Shown here: positions 7,097 to 41,951 of the stretch, piece after piece | Numbering within the stretch: the stretch's first letter is position 1 | Layout of the letters: each line of letters starts with the position of its first letter | The notes under the pieces: model-generated | Databases searched by the model: none | The model's input: the letters and a program-made list of their open reading frames with translations, nothing else | Told to the model about the DNA's origin: nothing | Assembly: GCA_029882915.1 (NCBI GenBank) | Contig: JAOUJZ010000005.1 | Coordinates: 1 to 64,000, forward strand | DNA length: 64,000 bases | Source: Gammaproteobacteria bacterium | GTDB lineage: Bacteria > Pseudomonadota > Gammaproteobacteria > Nitrosococcales > Methylophagaceae | Direction: 5' to 3' | Made by a program: the position numbers and the translations under genes

Positions 7097-7654
7097 ATGA
7101 CGAACGATGTTGCCCGATATGATCGTGTACAGATTATTCTGCACTGGTTGATTGCAGCGATTATTTTTCTCATGATTGGTCTGGGGTTGTTTATGGTTGA
7201 ACTACCAAAACAATCTGAATTACCGCCAGGTGAGGAAAGTGTTAGGGCATTTTACTTTCTATTACATAAATCTATGGGGCTGACGGTCGCCATGCTTATT
7301 ATATTGCGTGTATTCTGGCGTTTAACTCATAAGGCCCCTGCTCTACCAGATAGCATAGAGAAATGGCAGCAGAGAGCTGCTGGAGTCGTTCACGGCCTGC
7401 TTTATCTGGTTATGGTGGCAATGCCTTTATCGGGTTATGCTCAATCCATGTTCAGTAAATACGACACCAAGTTCTGGGGTATAACATTGCCCCGCATAGC
7501 AGAGGCCGATTCTGCTATGCGAGAAACGTTCACCGAACTACATGAGTGTTTGGCATTCCTATTCATCGCTTTAATTGTGATACACCTTGCGGCTGCAATT
7601 AAACATCATATGGCGGGAACAGGAATTTCCGAACGAATGTCACTTAAAAGATGA
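7097..7654 (+). CDS. cybB: Cytochrome b561 family protein
   Basis: A 185-residue inner-membrane protein with four hydrophobic helices. His residues stand in the positions expected for di-heme b561 of the bacterial CybB/YodB type: H17 in RVQIILHWL, a HKSMGL His after the second helix, and further His in LHECLAF and VIHLAA. Such proteins pass electrons between the quinone pool and other acceptors (E. coli CybB is a superoxide:quinone oxidoreductase). A strong GGAGAGAGAG ribosome site precedes the ATG. It ends against a bidirectional terminator shared with the convergent NADH dehydrogenase gene. Confidence 0.88.
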   Translation: MTNDVARYDRVQIILHWLIAAIIFLMIGLGLFMVELPKQSELPPGEESVRAFYFLLHKSMGLTVAMLIILRVFWRLTHKAPALPDSIEKWQQRAAGVVHGLLYLVMVAMPLSGYAQSMFSKYDTKFWGITLPRIAEADSAMRETFTELHECLAFLFIALIVIHLAAAIKHHMAGTGISERMSLKR

Positions 7655-30795: not shown

Positions 30796-31707
30796 TCAAC
30801 TATTAGAGATTTGAGAGATGGTTCTATTCTCTTTAAGTATGTAGTCAAGAAAAGTTTTGGCTACCAGAGATAGTTTTTTGCCTTTTAGGCGAACAGCGTA
30901 CCAAGGGCGTTTTATTGGAAAACCTTCAACATCTAATATAACTAGTTTATTAGCCGCTTGTTCAAGTTGGATGCTGTGTAATGAGATCACGGCAATACCT
31001 AGACCGGCCATAACCCCCTGCTTAATGGCTTCACTACTACCTAATTCCATATAAGGCATAACCTCTAGTCCCTGTTTTGCTAGCATGCGCTCAAAAAGCA
31101 TGCGAGTACCTGAGCCGATTTCACGTTCTAGAAAGCGCTCCTGAAGTAGATCCGTTAAAGCTATTTTCTTTCTTTTGGCCAAAGGGTGATTGGGGTGTGC
31201 AATAGGTACAAGAATATTTTCTAAAAAAGGAGAGGTTTCTAATTTGTCATCCTCAAGAATTTGACCCATCACAACAAAATCAACTTCATTACTATATAAG
31301 CGTTGAATCACTTTGGCACGATTAGTAAAGGTTAATTTGGGTTCGACATCAGGATGTTCGGCCAAAAAACTACCAAGCAGGTGAGGCATGAAATATTTAG
31401 TGGTTGAAACGACAGAAAGTTTTAATAGGCCCTTTACTTCACCTTGTAAGGTTTCAATTGAAGTTTTTAGCTCTTCGACTCGTGCCAGAATGTCTCGTGA
31501 TGCTTCATACATGCTACTTCCAGCCGCAGTTGGAAATACTTTTTTTCCGACCAATTCAAAAAGAGGTACTCCAACTTGATTTTCAAGCCGTTTGATTTGG
31601 ATTGATACAGCAGGCTGTGTAAGATGTAATTCTTTTGCGGCACGCGTGTAACTTGAATTTCTTGAAACGGCCTCAAAGAGTTTTAGTTGCTGTAAAGTAA
31701 AGTGCAT
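30796..31707 (-). CDS. cbbR: LysR-type regulator of the Calvin-cycle operon, CbbR
   Basis: 303 residues with the LysR winged helix (LQQLKLFEAVSRNSSYTRAA, LTQPAVSIQIKRLE) and a periplasmic-binding-like sensor domain containing LLKLSVVSTTKYFMPHLL and SEAIKQGVMAGLGIAV. It is divergent from cbbL across a 194-base gap, the standard place of CbbR, which activates cbb operons in response to metabolites such as NADPH or phosphorylated intermediates. Identification rests on sequence type plus position. Confidence 0.92.
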   Translation of the reverse strand: MHFTLQQLKLFEAVSRNSSYTRAAKELHLTQPAVSIQIKRLENQVGVPLFELVGKKVFPTAAGSSMYEASRDILARVEELKTSIETLQGEVKGLLKLSVVSTTKYFMPHLLGSFLAEHPDVEPKLTFTNRAKVIQRLYSNEVDFVVMGQILEDDKLETSPFLENILVPIAHPNHPLAKRKKIALTDLLQERFLEREIGSGTRMLFERMLAKQGLEVMPYMELGSSEAIKQGVMAGLGIAVISLHSIQLEQAANKLVILDVEGFPIKRPWYAVRLKGKKLSLVAKTFLDYILKENRTISQISNS

Positions 31708-31901: not shown

Positions 31902-33323
31902 ATGGCGGAAAATAAATATAACGCAGGTGTAAAAGAGTATCGAGAAACTTACTGGATGCCAGAATATACCCCTAAAGATACAGATATTTTGGCATGTTTC
32001 AAGATTGTCCCACAAGATGGAGTCCCTCGTGAAGAGGTAGCGGCAGCTGTTGCAGCTGAATCTTCAACAGGAACATGGACAACAGTATGGACTGACTTGT
32101 TAACGGATCTCGACTACTACAAAGGTCGAGCCTACGCGATTGAGGATGTTCCAGGTGACGATACTTCATTCTATGCATTCGTGGCTTACCCTATCGATTT
32201 ATTTGAAGAAGGATCAGTGGTCAACGTAATGACATCATTGGTCGGTAACGTATTTGGTTTTAAAGCCCTACGAGCGCTTCGACTAGAAGACATTCGCTTC
32301 CCGGTTGCCTATGTAATGACCTGTAATGGACCACCTCAAGGTATCCAAGTTGAACGAGACATTCTGAACAAGTATGGTCGTCCTCTTTTGGGTTGTACGA
32401 TCAAACCTAAATTGGGTCTGTCAGCTAAAAACTATGGCCGCGCATGTTATGAAGGCCTACGTGGCGGTTTGGACTTCACAAAAGATGATGAAAACGTAAA
32501 CTCACAGCCGTTCATGCGCTGGCGTCATCGCTTTGATTTCGTAATGGAAGCTATTCACAAAGCTGAAGCTGAAACTGGTGAACGAAAAGGTCACTATTTG
32601 AATGTAACAGCACCAACATCTGACGAAATGATGAGACGTGCTGAATATGCGAAAGAAATCGGCGCACCAATCATTATGCATGACTACCTGACAGGTGGTT
32701 TATCAGCGAACACACAATTAGCACAATGGTGTCAGGATAACGGTATGCTTCTGCATATCCATAGAGCGATGCATGCTGTATTGGACAGAAACCCGCACCA
32801 TGGTATCCACTTCCGTGTTTTGACTAAGATCTTACGCCTGTCAGGTGGTGACCATCTGCATTCAGGTACCGTTGTAGGTAAGTTGGAAGGTGATCGTGAT
32901 GCGACCTTAGGTTGGATCGATCTAATGCGTGATTCTTATATCAAAGAGGATCGTTCACGCGGTATCTTCTTTGATCAAGATTGGGGCTCAATGCCAGGTG
33001 TAATTCCTGTCGCATCAGGTGGTATCCATGTTTGGCATATGCCTGCGTTGGTGAGCATCTTTGGTGATGATTCTGTTCTACAGTTTGGTGGTGGTACGTT
33101 AGGTCACCCTTGGGGTAATGCAGCGGGCGCAGCAGCAAACCGTGTTGCAGTAGAAGCGTGTGTTGAGGCTCGTAACCGAGGCGTAGAGTTAGAAAAAGAA
33201 GGTAAAGAAATTCTAACTGCAGCAGCTAAGCACAGCCCTGAGTTGAAGACAGCAATGGAAACCTGGAAAGAAATTAAATTCGAGTTTGATACGGTTGATA
33301 AGTTAGACGTTTCTCATAAATAA
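31902..33323 (+). CDS. cbbL: Ribulose-bisphosphate carboxylase large subunit, form I
   Basis: 473 residues of RuBisCO, which fixes CO2 onto ribulose-1,5-bisphosphate. Catalytic residues are in place (spinach numbering is seven higher): K168 in [11 protein letters not shown], the carbamylated K194 in [16 protein letters not shown]287 in HIHRAMHAV and loop-6 K327 in VVGKLEGDR. The sequence type is form I of the proteobacterial IA kind. With cbbQ/cbbO downstream and no carboxysome genes seen, it fits the non-carboxysomal IAq arrangement. AGAGGA stands before the ATG. Confidence 0.98.
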
Positions 33324-33373
33324 GACTGACCTTTAATTGTACGAATTTAAGAATTATATTTGGAGTAAACACC

Positions 33374-33730
33374 ATGAGTGATATGCAAGATTACAAATCA
33401 AGCCTGAGTGACACAACGAGTCGCAAGTTTGAAACATTTTCATACTTGCCTGCAATGACCAGCGAACAGATCCGCCAACAGATTGAGTACGTGGTCAGTA
33501 AGGGTTGGAATCCTGGTATTGAGCACACTGAACCAGAAAATGCACGAAGCAACTACTGGTACATGTGGAAACTACCAATGTTTGGTGAGACAGATGTTGA
33601 TGCCATATTAGCTGAGGTTGAAAACTGCCATAAGGCACATCCTGATAACCATGTTCGTTTGTTGGGGTTTGATAACTTCAAACAATCAGCAGGCGCATCT
33701 ATGGTTATTTATCGTGGTAAAACAGTTTAA
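33374..33730 (+). CDS. cbbS: Ribulose-bisphosphate carboxylase small subunit
   Basis: 118 residues. Conserved parts are [20 protein letters not shown] near the N-terminus, [15 protein letters not shown], and [12 protein letters not shown] at the C-terminus. It completes the L8S8 form I enzyme. GGAG stands before the ATG, 50 bases after cbbL. A strong hairpin follows 23 bases after its stop. Confidence 0.98.
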
Positions 33731-33752
33731 CTCCACAATAGTTGACGCTATT

Positions 33753-33779
33753 AAAGCCCTCGACAAAGTCGAGGGCTTT
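33753..33779 (+). terminator. Perfect 12-bp hairpin behind cbbS, inside the cbb operon
   Basis: AAAGCCCTCGAC (33753-33764) pairs perfectly with GTCGAGGGCTTT (33768-33779) around an AAA loop. Only three T are present and CACT follows, so it is more likely a partial terminator or an mRNA-stabilising end than a full stop. Confidence 0.75.
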
Positions 33780-33795
33780 CACTAAAAAGAAAGCT

Positions 33796-34107
33796 ATGAA
33801 TAAACCAGATACATATGTAGGAATTGATAATGACATCAATGGTAGTATGACGACCATTGGTAAAATTATTCGAGATGCTTGGGTATTTGAGCTTATTCCT
33901 GAAACTGAAACATGCAAGGGCTGGAATTTGGCAGGGATTGATGCATTATTGCAAAAATTGAATGCCGAATGGGATAAATATGACTGCCTGGTTAGCCATT
34001 TGCCTGAGGCTTTATTTGACCGTCACCAACGGATTCATGGTGAAGCTATCGCTAAAGCAAAAGCTGAAGGATGGTCTGGCGAATTTGAGACAGAAGACGA
34101 AACGTAG
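33796..34107 (+). CDS. Small cbb-operon protein of unknown function
   Basis: A 103-residue acidic protein between cbbS and cbbQ that I do not recognise as a named family. The N-terminus reads YVGIDNDINGSMTTIGKII; then DAWVFELIPETETCKGW, a helical stretch (ALLQKLNAEWDKYDCLVSHLPEAL) and an acidic tail ending EFETEDET. No signal peptide or membrane helix. The frame is open further upstream through the hairpin (from a TTG at 33742), but the ATG at 33796 gives a compact start. Same strand and tight spacing with cbbQ (46 bases) make it part of the operon; a role with RuBisCO or its activase is an inference from position only. Confidence 0.75.
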   Translation: MNKPDTYVGIDNDINGSMTTIGKIIRDAWVFELIPETETCKGWNLAGIDALLQKLNAEWDKYDCLVSHLPEALFDRHQRIHGEAIAKAKAEGWSGEFETEDET

Positions 34108-34153
34108 TTAGCCAGTTTGTTTCGGGGTTTCAGAAGAAAATCAAAGGTGAGCT

Positions 34154-34966
34154 ATGTCCACAAATAAAGATCAACAGCAATACATCATAGAAAACGAACC
34201 ATACTATCAACCAGTAGCAGATGAGATCGAGCGCTATGAAGCGGCCTATCATGTGCGAATGCCGATGATGTTAAAAGGGCCTACAGGTTGTGGTAAATCG
34301 CGATTTGTTGAATATATGGCGTATAGATTGGGCAAACCATTGATTACGGTTGCTTGTAATGAAGACATGACAGCTTCAGATCTTGTTGGCCGTTTTTTGT
34401 TGGATAAAGATGGCACTAAATGGCAGGATGGCCCTCTGACAACGGCAGCAAGAATAGGAGCAATCTGTTATTTGGATGAAGTCGTTGAGGCTCGTCAGGA
34501 TACCACCGTTGTTATTCATCCATTGACGGACCATCGACGCAGTTTGCCGCTAGATAAAAAAGGGGAACTGATCACTGCGCATGACGATTTTCAATTAGTA
34601 ATTTCCTATAACCCGGGCTATCAAAGCTTGATGAAAGACCTGAAGCAATCAACCAAGCAGCGTTTCGGAGGCTTGGACTTTGATTATCCAGCAGAAGATT
34701 TAGAAGTTGATATTGTTGCCAAAGAGTCTGGGGTAGACAGGCCAACAGCAGAAAAATTGGTCCAGATTGCTCATCGCGCCCGTAATTTAAAAGGCCATGG
34801 CCTTGATGAAGGTATTTCAACGCGTCTGCTGGTATATGCAGGCCAGCTTATAGCAAAAGGACTTTCTGCCGAGGCAGCATGCAGTATGACAATGGTAACT
34901 CCTCTGACTGATGACAGTGATATGCGCGACACATTGAACGCTGCGGTTCAGACGTTCTTTGGCTAA
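34154..34966 (+). CDS. cbbQ: RuBisCO activase AAA+ subunit CbbQ
   Basis: 270 residues of the MoxR-type AAA+ family. Walker A is [11 protein letters not shown] (about residues 41-51), Walker B is [10 protein letters not shown] (about 101-110), and sensor-like [12 protein letters not shown] follows. With CbbO it forms a ring motor that removes inhibitory sugar phosphates from form I RuBisCO. AAAGGTGAG gives a strong ribosome site. Confidence 0.95.
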
Positions 34967-35042: not shown

Positions 35043-37397
35043 ATGAGCATCCAACTGGAAGATTACCGAGAGTTTCTGGAGGAGTCAGCTCCTGTGGTGC
35101 GTGATGTACTGGAGGCAAGCTTTCAAGAGGCGGCTCGTGTTATGTCACCAGCGGGGTTGGATGACTATATAAACGGTGCTAAGGCTTTATCTGGCCTTGG
35201 TCGTGGCAGCGATTTGGTTGTGTCGTATCTTCAAGAAGTCCCACTGGTGGTAAAAGAGTGTGGAGAAGATGTTATTCCTGATATTTTAACGTCTGCAATG
35301 AAGCTATCTTCCATGACCTCTGGCGAAGTTATTTCCTTACTGTTTAACAGTTTACCCACTGCCGCAAAAAACCTCGGCGATGCTCAGTTATTGCGAGGCT
35401 ACCTTACTTTCATCCATCAATTGGCCTCCACAGCGGCTCGCGGCCTGCGCCCGATGTTAAATCATATTGATGAATTATTATCAAAACTCACATTAAGTGG
35501 TTTACGTCGTTGGGCTAACTTTGGTGCTCAGGCTTATCGACGTGACTTTGCCAATTTAAATGCTTATTTTAATCTGGAGACGGCGGATTCCAGAGCGATG
35601 TTGCAAAAAGAACGTCGTGGTGTTTTGTTTATTAAAGTGCAAAGAAAGTTGAATTTTTACTTACGAGCATTATGGGGACGTGATTTCTTTTTACGCCCGA
35701 CAGGCGCTGATTACACTGATTTTCGACCATATATTGAGCATCGAATTATGCATATGCCTGATGCGGTCGACAATATTGAACAGCAAGACAATACAATCGC
35801 TGGCCTAGAGCTATATAGGGCGACAGCAGCCCATATGGCAGCCCACATGTGTTATTCCACATCGCCGATCAGTGCCGAGCAACTTAGTCCGGCGCAAATG
35901 TTTTTTATTGGGTTTATGGAGGATGCCCGAGTTGAGTATAAGGCGATAAAAGATTTTCCCGGTTTAAAAAGCTTATGGAAATCATTGCTTGTTGTCGACA
36001 AAGACAATGACGCTGAACATGAAACGGTGCCGGTTCTGGAGCACGTGGCATTGATGCTGCTTGATAGCTCAGCTTCATCAGATGATGAAGAGCTGAATGA
36101 ATTTACTGCCAAGTTCCATGCTGAAATTGCACAGCAGCAAGATAACAATCAGTCATCCTGGCAATTGGGTCTGGAATTATTTAATTTATTTGCCGGTCGT
36201 AAAGCAGTTCCTAGTCTTCGTATTTTGGAACGTATTCGTATTCCATACCGAGATGATAATCGTTACGTCTGGGAGTTTGAGGAGTTTGCCTGGGATGCGG
36301 AAGTAGACTATGTACCAGCTAGCCAGCGCCAAGTACGTAGAAATGTCAGCGCGATTGAAATGGCAAATGAAGTTGATTGTGAACTTGCTGGTGATGATGC
36401 TCAGGAAGTATGGATCTGTTCTACTGAAATGCGTCCTTATGAAGATGACCTTACGGATGATACAAAAAGCTTTAATGAGATGTGGGGTAAAGAACCGGTA
36501 TCGGAACCCTTTCGTTATCAAGAATGGGATTATCAAATTCAGTTGCACCGCCCTGATTGGGCCACAGTCTATGAACGTAGACAACCCAAAGGTGACGTGG
36601 AAGACATTAATCTCATATTAGAAAACTATAAGCCTGTCACACACCGGATAAAACAAATTATCGATCTGCTGACGCCAGAGGGCGTGCAACGCATTCGTAA
36701 TATGGAAGATGGCGACGAAATTGATCTCAATGCCGCCATTGATGCAATGATAGCGATTCGTATGGGTGATCAACCTAATTCACGGATTACCATGCGTAAT
36801 GTACTCAAAAGCCGAGACTTGTCTGTCGTGGTATTAATGGATTTATCAGAATCAACCAATGAAACCATTAATGGATCAGATAAAACGGTTTTACAGTTAA
36901 CGCGTGAGGCAGCAACATTAGTGTCAACGGCAATCAATGGAATTGGTGATCCTTTTGCGGTTCATGGGTTTGCATCAGACGGCCGTCATGACATCCAATA
37001 TTATCGTTTTAAAGATTTTAACCAGCATTTTAATGATGAAGCCAAGTCACGACTAGCGGGAATGAAGGGTGGCCTGTCTACTCGTATGGGGGCAGCATTG
37101 AGACATGCGGGATATCACTTATCTAAACAACAAGAACGTCGAAAACTCATACTGTTAGTTACTGATGGTGAACCAGCAGATATTGATGAACGCGATCCTC
37201 AGCATTTACGCCATGACACAAAAAAAGCAGTAGAAGAGCTTTATAGTCAAGGCATCTTAACGTACTGCTTAACCCTTGACCTAAATGCAGATGACTATGT
37301 GAAACGTATTTTTGGTATGAATAATTATACGATTATTGATAATGTCGACCGTCTCCCAGAGCAACTGCCAACACTGTTTGCAAGCCTGACAAGGTAA
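35043..37397 (+). CDS. cbbO: RuBisCO activase adaptor CbbO with von Willebrand A domain
   Basis: 784 residues. The long N-terminal part is helical. The C-terminal third is a von Willebrand factor A domain with the MIDAS motif DLSES (in VVLMDLSESTNET, about residue 600), followed by STRMGAALRHAG and LLVTDGEPADID. In the CbbQO activase the MIDAS recruits the RuBisCO large subunit to the CbbQ ring. I chose the ATG at 35043, with AAGG ten bases upstream, over a TTG at 35037. Last gene of the operon. Confidence 0.95.
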   Translation: MSIQLEDYREFLEESAPVVRDVLEASFQEAARVMSPAGLDDYINGAKALSGLGRGSDLVVSYLQEVPLVVKECGEDVIPDILTSAMKLSSMTSGEVISLLFNSLPTAAKNLGDAQLLRGYLTFIHQLASTAARGLRPMLNHIDELLSKLTLSGLRRWANFGAQAYRRDFANLNAYFNLETADSRAMLQKERRGVLFIKVQRKLNFYLRALWGRDFFLRPTGADYTDFRPYIEHRIMHMPDAVDNIEQQDNTIAGLELYRATAAHMAAHMCYSTSPISAEQLSPAQMFFIGFMEDARVEYKAIKDFPGLKSLWKSLLVVDKDNDAEHETVPVLEHVALMLLDSSASSDDEELNEFTAKFHAEIAQQQDNNQSSWQLGLELFNLFAGRKAVPSLRILERIRIPYRDDNRYVWEFEEFAWDAEVDYVPASQRQVRRNVSAIEMANEVDCELAGDDAQEVWICSTEMRPYEDDLTDDTKSFNEMWGKEPVSEPFRYQEWDYQIQLHRPDWATVYERRQPKGDVEDINLILENYKPVTHRIKQIIDLLTPEGVQRIRNMEDGDEIDLNAAIDAMIAIRMGDQPNSRITMRNVLKSRDLSVVVLMDLSESTNETINGSDKTVLQLTREAATLVSTAINGIGDPFAVHGFASDGRHDIQYYRFKDFNQHFNDEAKSRLAGMKGGLSTRMGAALRHAGYHLSKQQERRKLILLVTDGEPADIDERDPQHLRHDTKKAVEELYSQGILTYCLTLDLNADDYVKRIFGMNNYTIIDNVDRLPEQLPTLFASLTR

Positions 37398-37857: not shown

Positions 37858-39975
37858 ATGGTTTTACTTTATCGGTTGCTGCCCATCTTTGTTTTGTCAG
37901 CAGGGCTGACGGCAACATTTTTTACTCATTCATTTTTGGAGAGAGAGTCAGGTTTAGAAAGCAGAGCTAGATTTGTTGAGGCGAGCCAAATCAGAATCAA
38001 CGCTGTTAAACAACTTCTTCATGATGTTGATGGATCGTTACTGGCTATTAAGGCTTTTTTTGACGCATCGCAATCTGTTTCAAAAGAGGAATTTAAGTCG
38101 TTTACACTTCCACTATTGAAGAATAACCAGTCAATCCTGACTTTATCATGGAGCGAAATAAAGCCGAATGATAAAAGCAATAATAACAACCCAAGCTCTC
38201 CATCAGTTCACGACATTATTTTTTTTGATGCTGCATTACAGGGCGGTAATACAGAATTCAATGATTGGTTATCTTCAAACTTCTATCGTATACAGGAGGC
38301 CATGACAGATGGCGAAAATAGGCTTGTCTTTCACTTGAAAGAAAGGGGGGGAGCTGATGAGATGGTAGTTGTTCTGCCAACAGTTACCAAGACTATGAGA
38401 AGCGGCAATACAATAAGCGTTAAAGGTTTTGCAATGATGAAAATAAACCTGGCTTCTCTTATGAGTCAAGCATTGGCTTCTATCCCACCTGCCGGCATTC
38501 ATCTTGACCTAAAAAATAAGAATGAATTAGTTGGCCGCCATATCTCTCGTCATGAAAAGAAGCATGGTTCACGAATTCAGTCAAATGATGAAAGGTTGAT
38601 ATACCAAGAGCCGTTGGAATTTTCAGGCAATGAATGGACTATAGTTTCTAGGGGTATTAATAGTGTTTTTTATCCTAAACATAGTCTCAAAAATCATACA
38701 GCTCTGTATGTTGGGGCGTTAATAAGCTGTTTGATTGCAATAATCAGCTATGTCATGATTAATCGACATATTTATATTCTTAATATGGTGAAGGAAAAAA
38801 CAAGTGAGCTAAATAAGGCGCATTTGAAGGTAACAAAATATTCAAAAAATTTAGAACAAGAATTAAATAAAAGAGCGCAGGAGTTAATCTATCAACAAAG
38901 AGCCCTTGATCAGCACGCAATCGTCAGCATTGCTAATGTTAAAGGTGATATTACTTATGTTAATGATAAGTTTATCGAGATTAGTCAATTCTCAGAAAAT
39001 GAGCTGCTCGGAAAAAACCACCGTGTTATTAAGTCAGATTTTCACCCCAATTCATTCTATAAAGAAATGTGGCATACCATTGCCAATGGTGATGTTTGGA
39101 CAGGCGAAATTAAAAACCAAGCGAAAGATGGTACTCACTATTGGATGGAAGCAACCATCGTTCCCTTCTTAAATGATCAAGGTAAGCCAGAGAAGTATAT
39201 TAGTATTCGTACAGATATTACGCATATAAAGACTATTGAGGAAGCATTGCTTGTATCAAAAGAAAATGCTGAGAGAGCCAATAAAGTAAAGTCGGAATTT
39301 GTTTCTGCAATGAGTCATGAGCTGCGTACACCGCTAAATTCAATTTTAGGTTTTAGCCAATTACTAGAAAGTGACACGCAAACTCCTCTTACAGAAGATC
39401 AAAAAGAGAGCGTTGGTTATATCATTAATGGAGGGCAGCATTTGCTGGACTTAGTCAATCAGGTTCTAGATCTATCCACAATAGAGGATGGCTCATTAGA
39501 TCTTTCTATTACAGAAGTTCCGATACGAAATGCAGTTAATGATGTTCTTTCTTTAATGCATGTAATAAGCAAGAAAGCTAATGTTAAAACTCATGTGTCC
39601 TCAGAGTTAGATCTGTCAGTACAAGCGGATCCCATTAAGCTGAAACAAATATTGTTAAATCTCGTCGGTAATGCAATTAAATATAACAAGGAAGGGGGCT
39701 CTGTTAGTGTTAATTGGTGTGTAGCAGCCAATATGGTGAAGGTTAGTGTTGTCGATACAGGGATAGGCATACCAAAGGAGTTTCACTTCAAACTGTTTAC
39801 TGCATTTAACCGATTGGGACAAGAAAATTCGACGATTGCAGGTACAGGTGTCGGATTGCTAGTAACTAAAAGTCTTGTTGAATTGATGGGTGGAATGATC
39901 GGTTTTGAAAGTGTTGAAGGAAAAGGCAGTACATTTTGGTTTGAATTGCCAATCGAGACAAAACCGTATAGGTAG
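37858..39975 (+). CDS. CHASE-PAS hybrid-free histidine kinase
   Basis: 705 residues: N-terminal membrane helix (about 4-24), periplasmic CHASE sensor domain (about 40-275), second helix (about 282-302), a coiled linker, a PAS domain (about 350-460, with GDVWTGEIKNQAKDGTHYW) and the kinase core. The phospho-accepting His is H487 in MSHELRTPLNSILGF; the ATPase part has NAIKYN, DTGIGIP and GTGVGLLVTKSLVELM. No receiver domain is attached. It should be an inner-membrane sensor for a small extracellular ligand. A paralogue follows directly and no response regulator gene is adjacent. Confidence 0.92.
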   Translation: MVLLYRLLPIFVLSAGLTATFFTHSFLERESGLESRARFVEASQIRINAVKQLLHDVDGSLLAIKAFFDASQSVSKEEFKSFTLPLLKNNQSILTLSWSEIKPNDKSNNNNPSSPSVHDIIFFDAALQGGNTEFNDWLSSNFYRIQEAMTDGENRLVFHLKERGGADEMVVVLPTVTKTMRSGNTISVKGFAMMKINLASLMSQALASIPPAGIHLDLKNKNELVGRHISRHEKKHGSRIQSNDERLIYQEPLEFSGNEWTIVSRGINSVFYPKHSLKNHTALYVGALISCLIAIISYVMINRHIYILNMVKEKTSELNKAHLKVTKYSKNLEQELNKRAQELIYQQRALDQHAIVSIANVKGDITYVNDKFIEISQFSENELLGKNHRVIKSDFHPNSFYKEMWHTIANGDVWTGEIKNQAKDGTHYWMEATIVPFLNDQGKPEKYISIRTDITHIKTIEEALLVSKENAERANKVKSEFVSAMSHELRTPLNSILGFSQLLESDTQTPLTEDQKESVGYIINGGQHLLDLVNQVLDLSTIEDGSLDLSITEVPIRNAVNDVLSLMHVISKKANVKTHVSSELDLSVQADPIKLKQILLNLVGNAIKYNKEGGSVSVNWCVAANMVKVSVVDTGIGIPKEFHFKLFTAFNRLGQENSTIAGTGVGLLVTKSLVELMGGMIGFESVEGKGSTFWFELPIETKPYR

Positions 39976-40157: not shown

Positions 40158-41951
40158 ATGTCGTTCATTCATCGATTAATTATCATTATCTCCTTGCTTC
40201 TAGGGTTTATGGCAACCTATATTGCCTATAGCTTTGTCCAATCGCAAGCCGACAATAAAATAGACGATAACTTTAAAGAGGCCGCGCATCTGAGAGTTCA
40301 CGCGGTTGAAGAAAGTATTAAACTTAATATGGCTGCTTTACTCGCTATGCAGGCTTTCTACGATGCGTCGGAAAAAGTGACAAGAGAAGAGTTTGAGCAT
40401 TTCACATCTCGATTGATGGATAATGACCCTTCGATTTTGGCACTAAAATGGGCGCCCATTGTTGCACATAAAAATAAGCGTTCACAATTAATAGAAAATC
40501 AATGGAGAGAAGGCAATAAAAGTAATGCTTATTATCCACTTTTATATATCAATCCTTCGCAAGGCAATGAAGACTTAGTAGGCATTGACTTGGCTCTAGA
40601 CGATAATATATTGAAAGGGATATTGTCTTCAGAGAAAACAGGACTGGTCTCTATTGCTGTTCCCACTCCCCAAGACAAACAAAGGGCAACGCATTTTATT
40701 TTGCCTATATATCATAAGTTCGACACTCGACCATCAGACAGAGCCAACATCAGGGGCTTTATCATTATGGACACGGATGTTCGAACGTTGATGGATCGAT
40801 CCTTGGATCACCTTCCAGAAGGTGGCGTTCATATTTCAGTAAAAGAAAATAATCAACTACTGGGTTATCACAGGTCGCGAGTAGAAAATAGCAACAGTGT
40901 AATAAGGAATCAGACTTTCCCCACAGAAAAAGAGACCCTGATGTATAAAGAATTATTCTTTGTCGGAGATAAGGAGTGGAAAATCGTTGCTGAAGGCATC
41001 AATGCTGAGTTTTTTAGGGAAACAAAGACATCCAGTCTGCTGGTTATGGTTTCAGGCATTATTATCAGCACATTACTTACAATTATTTTATCTATAACAC
41101 TAAAGCGTCATGAGACCATTGTTAATTTGGTTGATGAAAAAACCAGAGAATTAAATCAGGCTAACGATAGTCTTCAGCAACAGTCAAATGATTTGGAGCT
41201 AGAGGTAGAGAAGAGAACCAGAGAGTTTTTAAGGGCCAAGGTGGCTGCTGAATCATCTAGTTTGGCCAAGTCAGAATTTCTTTCATCAATGAGTCATGAA
41301 TTACGAACTCCGCTTAATTCCATTTTAGGTTTTGCTCAATTATTGGAAATGGAAGATGAGGCGCCTCTCTCGGATAATCAAAAAGAAAGTGTGGATTTCA
41401 TAGTCGCTTCAGGAGAGCATTTATTAAAACTTATCAATCAGGTTCTGGACTTATCTGCTATTGAGGCTGGTAAGGTAGAACTTGTCATGGGTAGTATCAC
41501 ATTATCCGATATTATTAACGATACTATCGCTTTAATGCAGATAGACGCTGAAAAAGCTGGTGTCCAATTGCATGTTCTATCTGATTCAGATCTATCAGTA
41601 AATGCTGATTACACTAAATTAAAACAGGTTTTATTAAACCTGATAAGCAATGCAATTAAATACAATATAAATGGCGGCTCAGTGAGTATAGACTGGCAGG
41701 ACATGGAAGATAATCTAGTGAAAATCAGTATCACTGATACAGGGGTGGGCATTCCTAAAGCCTTTCAAAACAAGGTTTTTAGTGCTTTCGATCGGCTTGG
41801 ACAAGAAAACTCCAATATTCAAGGAACAGGCATAGGCCTGTTGACGACAAAAGACCTCGTTGAACTCATGGATGGAAGTATTGGTTTTGATAGCATAGAG
41901 GGAGAAGGGTCAACCTTTTGGTTTATGTTGCCTGCTACACAGAAGGCCTAA
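40158..41951 (+). CDS. CHASE histidine kinase, paralogue of the preceding gene without PAS
   Basis: 597 residues with helix (about 7-24), CHASE sensor (about 40-285), helix (about 292-314), a short coiled coil and the kinase core. H380 lies in MSHELRTPLNSILGF; NAIKYN, DTGVGIP and GTGIGLLTTKDLVELM follow. It differs from the gene before it mainly by lacking the PAS domain, and many stretches are alike, including the HisKA block, the NQVLDLS.IE helix and the ATPase motifs. A tandem duplication followed by gain or loss of PAS is the likely history. Confidence 0.92.
   Translation: MSFIHRLIIIISLLLGFMATYIAYSFVQSQADNKIDDNFKEAAHLRVHAVEESIKLNMAALLAMQAFYDASEKVTREEFEHFTSRLMDNDPSILALKWAPIVAHKNKRSQLIENQWREGNKSNAYYPLLYINPSQGNEDLVGIDLALDDNILKGILSSEKTGLVSIAVPTPQDKQRATHFILPIYHKFDTRPSDRANIRGFIIMDTDVRTLMDRSLDHLPEGGVHISVKENNQLLGYHRSRVENSNSVIRNQTFPTEKETLMYKELFFVGDKEWKIVAEGINAEFFRETKTSSLLVMVSGIIISTLLTIILSITLKRHETIVNLVDEKTRELNQANDSLQQQSNDLELEVEKRTREFLRAKVAAESSSLAKSEFLSSMSHELRTPLNSILGFAQLLEMEDEAPLSDNQKESVDFIVASGEHLLKLINQVLDLSAIEAGKVELVMGSITLSDIINDTIALMQIDAEKAGVQLHVLSDSDLSVNADYTKLKQVLLNLISNAIKYNINGGSVSIDWQDMEDNLVKISITDTGVGIPKAFQNKVFSAFDRLGQENSNIQGTGIGLLTTKDLVELMDGSIGFDSIEGEGSTFWFMLPATQKA

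Follow-up and report, generated by a model that had tools for sequence, protein, structure and literature searches.

The stretch of DNA that was analysed (the window) comprises 64,000 nucleotides of a contig from a gammaproteobacterium of the family Methylophagaceae. It contains a Rubisco operon with the gene order cbbL-cbbS-X-cbbQ-cbbO and a divergent cbbR-like gene, X being a small gene between the Rubisco and the activase genes. The features of the locus are:

30796–31707, minus strand: divergent cbbR-like gene for a LysR regulator
31902–33323, plus strand: cbbL, form I Rubisco large subunit, with the C-terminus ...KLDVSHK
33374–33730, plus strand: cbbS, Rubisco small subunit
33753–33779, plus strand: 12-pair hairpin between cbbS and X, a candidate partial terminator or processing site
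33796–34107, plus strand: gene X, 103-residue protein of no known family, with homologues and under purifying selection
34154–34966, plus strand: cbbQ, AAA+ activase subunit, with AAA_5 and CbbQ_C matches
35043–37397, plus strand: cbbO, VWA-domain activase adaptor, with a VWA match; named by position and similarity

The KLDXXHK motif of CbbL, to which the C-terminus of the large subunit conforms, has been described before (PMC8718961). Since no BMC shell protein was found in the genome of the window (90% complete), the setting looks like a non-carboxysomal (IAq) one. No Rfam matches are present within 33300–34400. On the 3′ side of cbbO two tandem sensor-kinase-like genes follow on the plus strand, at 37858–39975 and 40158–41951; the first shows PAS, HisKA and HATPase matches and the second is alike by eye.

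Gene X is an open frame of 103 codons and a stop codon. Its start was assigned to the ATG at 33796, where the homologues begin; the longest mechanical reading frame opens earlier, at the TTG at 33742. A single scan of GTDB genome contigs led to 542 confirmed relatives, and from these the 80 closest were retained. X differs from its nearest relative (88% identical) by 35.5 synonymous and 15.5 non-synonymous changes, which corresponds to a dN/dS of ∼0.06, and the mean pS of 0.76 versus a mean pN of 0.17, obtained from 2145 pairs of the 66 gap-free copies among the 80 kept loci, shows the same tendency. X is a genuine gene under strong purifying selection, and both the 103-residue gene between cbbS and cbbQ that had been read from the sequence and the existence of conserved homologues are confirmed. 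The genome of the window has a single copy. Columns conserved at ≥90% include Y7, G9, G16, G17 (Ser in the window), M18, T19, G22, R26, D27, A28, W29, F31, E36, C40, G42, W43, W59, L69, P70, A88, G92 and W93. Inspected by eye, the protein contains about twice as many Asp and Glu as Lys and Arg residues and no obvious membrane segment, in agreement with its earlier description as acidic and soluble.

Searches with X against Pfam and NCBIfam revealed no family match, and 77 aligned members gave scattered weak matches only. The AAA+ (CbbQ_C) and VWA domains that Pfam detects in the neighbouring CbbQ and CbbO are absent from X. Among the 77 members there were no matches at E ≤ 0.1 to the pterin dehydratase-like (acRAF) domain or to the RbcX and Raf1 families of Pfam, nor were P-II or CP12 family domains found with Pfam and NCBIfam. 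Because there is no Pfam model for it, X would escape Pfam-based surveys such as that of PMC7895386. An AlphaFold2 model, calculated from a 76-row alignment (mean pLDDT 88.7, pTM 0.78), describes a small helical protein with helices at residues 14–17, 20–30, 45–60 and 71–90 and an acidic tail modelled at low confidence. A Foldseek search with this model returned no PDB or viral matches at E ≤ 0.001, which in itself does not prove a new fold, and a second-look aligner run against 64 chains gave a best Z of 2.0, a value that is still compatible with a shared chaperone fold as in RbcX or Raf1. The top match among PDB sequences, 'H12' of entry 8fjg (profile positions 48–96, E 8e-5), was set aside, its score being tentatively attributed to helix composition. 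A viral scan produced 10 pattern matches and 0 relatives, and X occurs in one record among 72,556 plasmid records.

The 80 loci retained are by construction those of the closest homologues; in 70 of them X is located between cbbS (at ≤400 bp) and cbbQ (at ≤700 bp). Four of the other ten are cut by a contig end and six depart from this order (L031, L044, L056, L059, L085 and L089). Named carriers include Sedimenticola, Thiothrix, Cocleimonas, a Solemya symbiont, Ghiorsea and Methylophaga sp. 42_25_T18, and the culturable Sedimenticola selenatireducens and Thiothrix lacustris are among those with the order cbbLS-X-QO. Distant members, ∼36–60% identical to X, are arranged as LSQ-X-O (L121, L150) or LSQO-X (L125, L147, L158), or stand alone; in L149, X and a second cbbL, which is of the 77% identity class, are divergently oriented. 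Over the whole class, 47 of 118 copies lie ≤6 kb from a listed cbbL or cbbO match, a lower bound given that one or two Rubisco/CbbO matches per genome were used. Another 12 are found at 6–25 kb, and for 59 no such match lies within 25 kb. Fetched DNA showed linkage for three of the 59, to a cbbL stretch in G193, to a short cbbO-like fragment in G348 and to a broken cbbO in G399. The expectation that homologues mostly stand next to cbbQ or cbbO thus holds for the closest loci and fails for the class at large, where linkage within 6 kb is seen for 47 of 118 copies plus at least three. With linkage this limited, co-occurrence at the genome level outweighs operon position as evidence.

The surroundings of the unlinked copies were tallied from 91 ORFs, comprising 90 selected by hand among the 180 flanking ones (mainly those closest to X, with a preference for longer frames) and one BMC ORF of L165 that lies near X without adjoining it. 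No recurrent functional family was frequent among them (abhydrolase 5, frataxin 3, BMC 2, one of which is that of L165). Dispersed copies near the frataxin gene cyaY were observed in L122, L126, L131, L146 and L152, the frataxin being confirmed by Pfam in L122 and assigned by clustering in the others; a small protein, membrane-like by eye, is encoded near X in four of these five loci.

Across 369 genomes of the class, X is present in 112 and the form I small subunit in 144, with 104 genomes having the two together; of the 113 genomes listed for X, G224 was dropped (42 positions, E 7e-4), and G119 and G280, with partial matches, were retained. The small-subunit domain PF00101 is matched in 104 of the 112 genomes with X versus 40 of the 257 without it (Fisher p ∼1e-47, uncorrected for phylogeny). 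Among genomes classed as form IA, an assignment made by exclusion in which the ambiguous G199 is counted as IA, 104 of 136 carry X and 32 do not, against none of the nine form IC-only genomes. Three of these nine calls (G096, G128, G252) are based on E-values only; in the other six, which were fetched, CbbL is 53–57% identical to that of the window. When the genomes are grouped by how closely their best CbbL matches that of the window, X is found in 40/41 genomes at ≥90%, 29/36 at 86–89%, 10/19 at 82–85% and 21/33 at 77–81%; these classes cover 129 genomes, the other 15 of the 144 having no listed CbbL match. On these genome counts, X tracks the green-type form IA enzyme and not Rubisco at large.

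Two further samples were compared. In 59 genomes of relatives, all nine with X also have cbbS, and cbbS occurs without X in seven more, i.e., in 7 of the 16 cbbS genomes. In 200 genomes of the phylum X was found in nine, all nine with cbbS, and 11 more have cbbS only. The PF00101 match of these 11 covers positions 1–97, as in the six verified form IC genomes, which hints that they may be form IC as well; it is a hint only, because G093 and G336 of the class show the same 1–97 match together with a CbbL identity of 79–80%.

The possibility that X serves a general cellular function and merely hitchhikes in Rubisco operons would be in line with the roughly half of the class-wide copies that are unlinked by the listed matches, some of them beside cyaY, and with G399, a genome (100% complete) with two copies of X, one next to the broken cbbO remnant, and no Rubisco large chain. 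Against such a role, the form I small subunit accompanies X in 104 of 112 genomes and is missing from 217 of the 257 genomes without X, and within the family of the window the 6 of 36 genomes that have X are precisely those that have cbbS. This co-occurrence makes a general role very improbable. Other genomes in which X lacks part of its usual company are G271, with a RuBisCO_large match and no form I small subunit, G202, G339 and G357, where X and a form-I-type CbbO are present and cbbS was not found, and G073, G088 and G324 (72–88% complete), with neither cbbS nor a form-I-type CbbO. At 7550–7952 of L127, a broken C-terminal cbbO remnant lies beside a stop-free X frame in a genome without a Rubisco large-chain match. 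As the form I small subunit occurs in only 6 of the 36 genomes of the window's family (G000–G035), of which Methylophaga sp. 42_25_T18 is a relative, the operon is patchy there, by transfer or loss.

The interval between cbbS and X folds more stably than its shuffled versions in most relatives, with an energy z < −2 in 68 of 75 loci (30 mononucleotide shuffles each). A hairpin similar to that at 33753–33779 is present in relatives and is followed by a T-run in most of the 23 loci whose sequences were inspected; in the window itself no T-run follows and the terminator scan has no entry at this site. A strong hairpin is conserved in the cbbS-X intervals of L012–L091 and frequently has a T-run. 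The hairpin is likely a partial terminator that sets the expression of cbbLS above that of X-cbbQ-cbbO. Because it separates cbbS from X, the X, CbbQ and CbbO proteins are probably made at a lower level than CbbLS, and such a lower level would suit a helper better than a structural subunit.

The position of X invites a comparison with the CbbQ/CbbO activase, which is encoded in the same operon and acts on form IA Rubisco. X could be a regulatory or targeting subunit of CbbQO that modulates its ATPase or the way it docks on Rubisco, as might be expected from its place directly 5′ of cbbQ in 70 of the 80 close loci and, in distant members, between cbbQ and cbbO or 3′ of cbbO. The distances between sequences point partly in the same direction, with a partial correlation between X and CbbO of 0.35 (55 loci) or 0.32 (46 operon-type loci). 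The strongest partner of X, though, is CbbL in one set and CbbO in the other, and in view of this disagreement co-evolution was not counted for the main reading. Unlike CbbQ and CbbO, X has no AAA+ or VWA match, and it also occurs where no form-I-type CbbO was found: X is present in 85 of the 103 form IA genomes that have such a CbbO and in 19 of the 33 without, the CbbO set having been typed from listed matches that may miss short fragments. X is therefore not merely a CbbQO subunit. In 18 of these 19 genomes the CbbL match ends at query position 470–471 instead of 473, an ending reported by Tsai et al. for carboxysomal Rubiscos without CbbQO (PMC8718961). Furthermore, purified CbbQO complexes act as an activase with just these two proteins (PMC8718961), and the operon list given for cbb2 of A. 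ferrooxidans names nothing between cbbS2 and cbbQ2 (PMC2942843). We consider a CbbQO subunit unlikely on balance. Of the assembly, activase or regulatory role that the original prediction had thought plausible, the tie to Rubisco is borne out by co-occurrence and by gene order in close homologues, and a pure activase function is weakened.

X might alternatively be a regulator or linker of carbon supply that senses a metabolite and acts on inorganic-carbon uptake or on carboxysomes, in a role resembling that of P-II or CP12. X adjoins DabA/DabB/P-II genes on plasmid 1 of Nitrobacter hamburgensis, which lies outside the class sample, and in G085, where it is one of the 12 copies at 6–25 kb; in L132 it adjoins a BMC shell gene. 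However, the two DAB-linked cases are the only ones seen, and no ligand-binding family was matched in Pfam or NCBIfam. The lack of BMC matches in the 90% complete genome of the window suggests that X functions without a carboxysome. A carbon-supply role is improbable, more so than a role as activase subunit. A small hypothetical gene of Halothiobacillus neapolitanus, located beside DAB/P-II genes between csoCbbO and csoCbbQ, resembles X as a small unknown among activase and carbon-uptake genes, a likeness that is one of description (PMC4633670).

X is probably a helper protein that accompanies one class of bacterial Rubisco, the form IA enzyme, on which many sulfur, iron and nitrite oxidisers and symbionts rely. 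It is an even call whether X is, more precisely, a dedicated accessory factor that binds form IA Rubisco for its assembly or maintenance. As such it would be a non-enzymatic protein, most likely contacting the large subunit or the holoenzyme and helping the enzyme to assemble or to stay competent; it would act beside the CbbQO activase as no required part of it, and would probably be co-produced with CbbQ and CbbO in smaller amounts than CbbLS. Small dedicated accessory proteins of Rubisco are already represented by the assembly factors acRAF, RbcX and Raf1. Their role is the one proposed here for X, which differs from them in having no Pfam match to these proteins among its 77 aligned members and no PDB fold match for its model, the latter leaving room for a shared fold; acRAF is also covered in PMC7714395 and PMC12918739. 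A bolder version, to be taken as tentative, is that X is the missing chaperone for assembly or holoenzyme maintenance of proteobacterial form IA Rubisco and arose independently of its counterparts RbcX, Raf1 and acRAF; it would have a fold not represented in the PDB, serve free (IAq) and carboxysomal (IAc) enzymes alike and travel with Rubisco in horizontal transfer. Form IA Rubisco is used in engineering work and its assembly is poorly known; for alpha-carboxysome bacteria, a 2026 review calls complex formation and assembly 'relatively unknown' (PMC12918739). Should X prove to be an assembly factor, adding it to heterologous expression would be simple.

X had been called unrecognised, which stands as far as its function is concerned, literature searches having found none in print, and does not stand for its position. 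Assie et al., printed in 2019, describe a conserved hypothetical protein encoded between the rbcS and cbbQ genes of Ca. Thiobarba; the hypothetical genes recur in Ca. Thioglobus autotrophicus and in bathymodiolin symbionts (PMC6908604). This gene and X share their operon position in form I clusters of gammaproteobacterial origin and are likened by position alone, from which X would appear to be the hypothetical protein of that study (PMC6908604). The Ca. Thiobarba type of gene is also reported in Campylobacterota with Rubisco, in two families, the case of Ca. Thiobarba being explained by gene transfer; the account of the gene in that paper gives no function, family or fold (PMC6908604). Bohnke and Perner (2017) called the interval between cbbS and cbbQ-1 non-coding, and a clone with part of this interval deleted showed reduced RubisCO activity in a cbbL-negative background (PMC5506194); as a lead only, their deletion may have disrupted an unannotated X.
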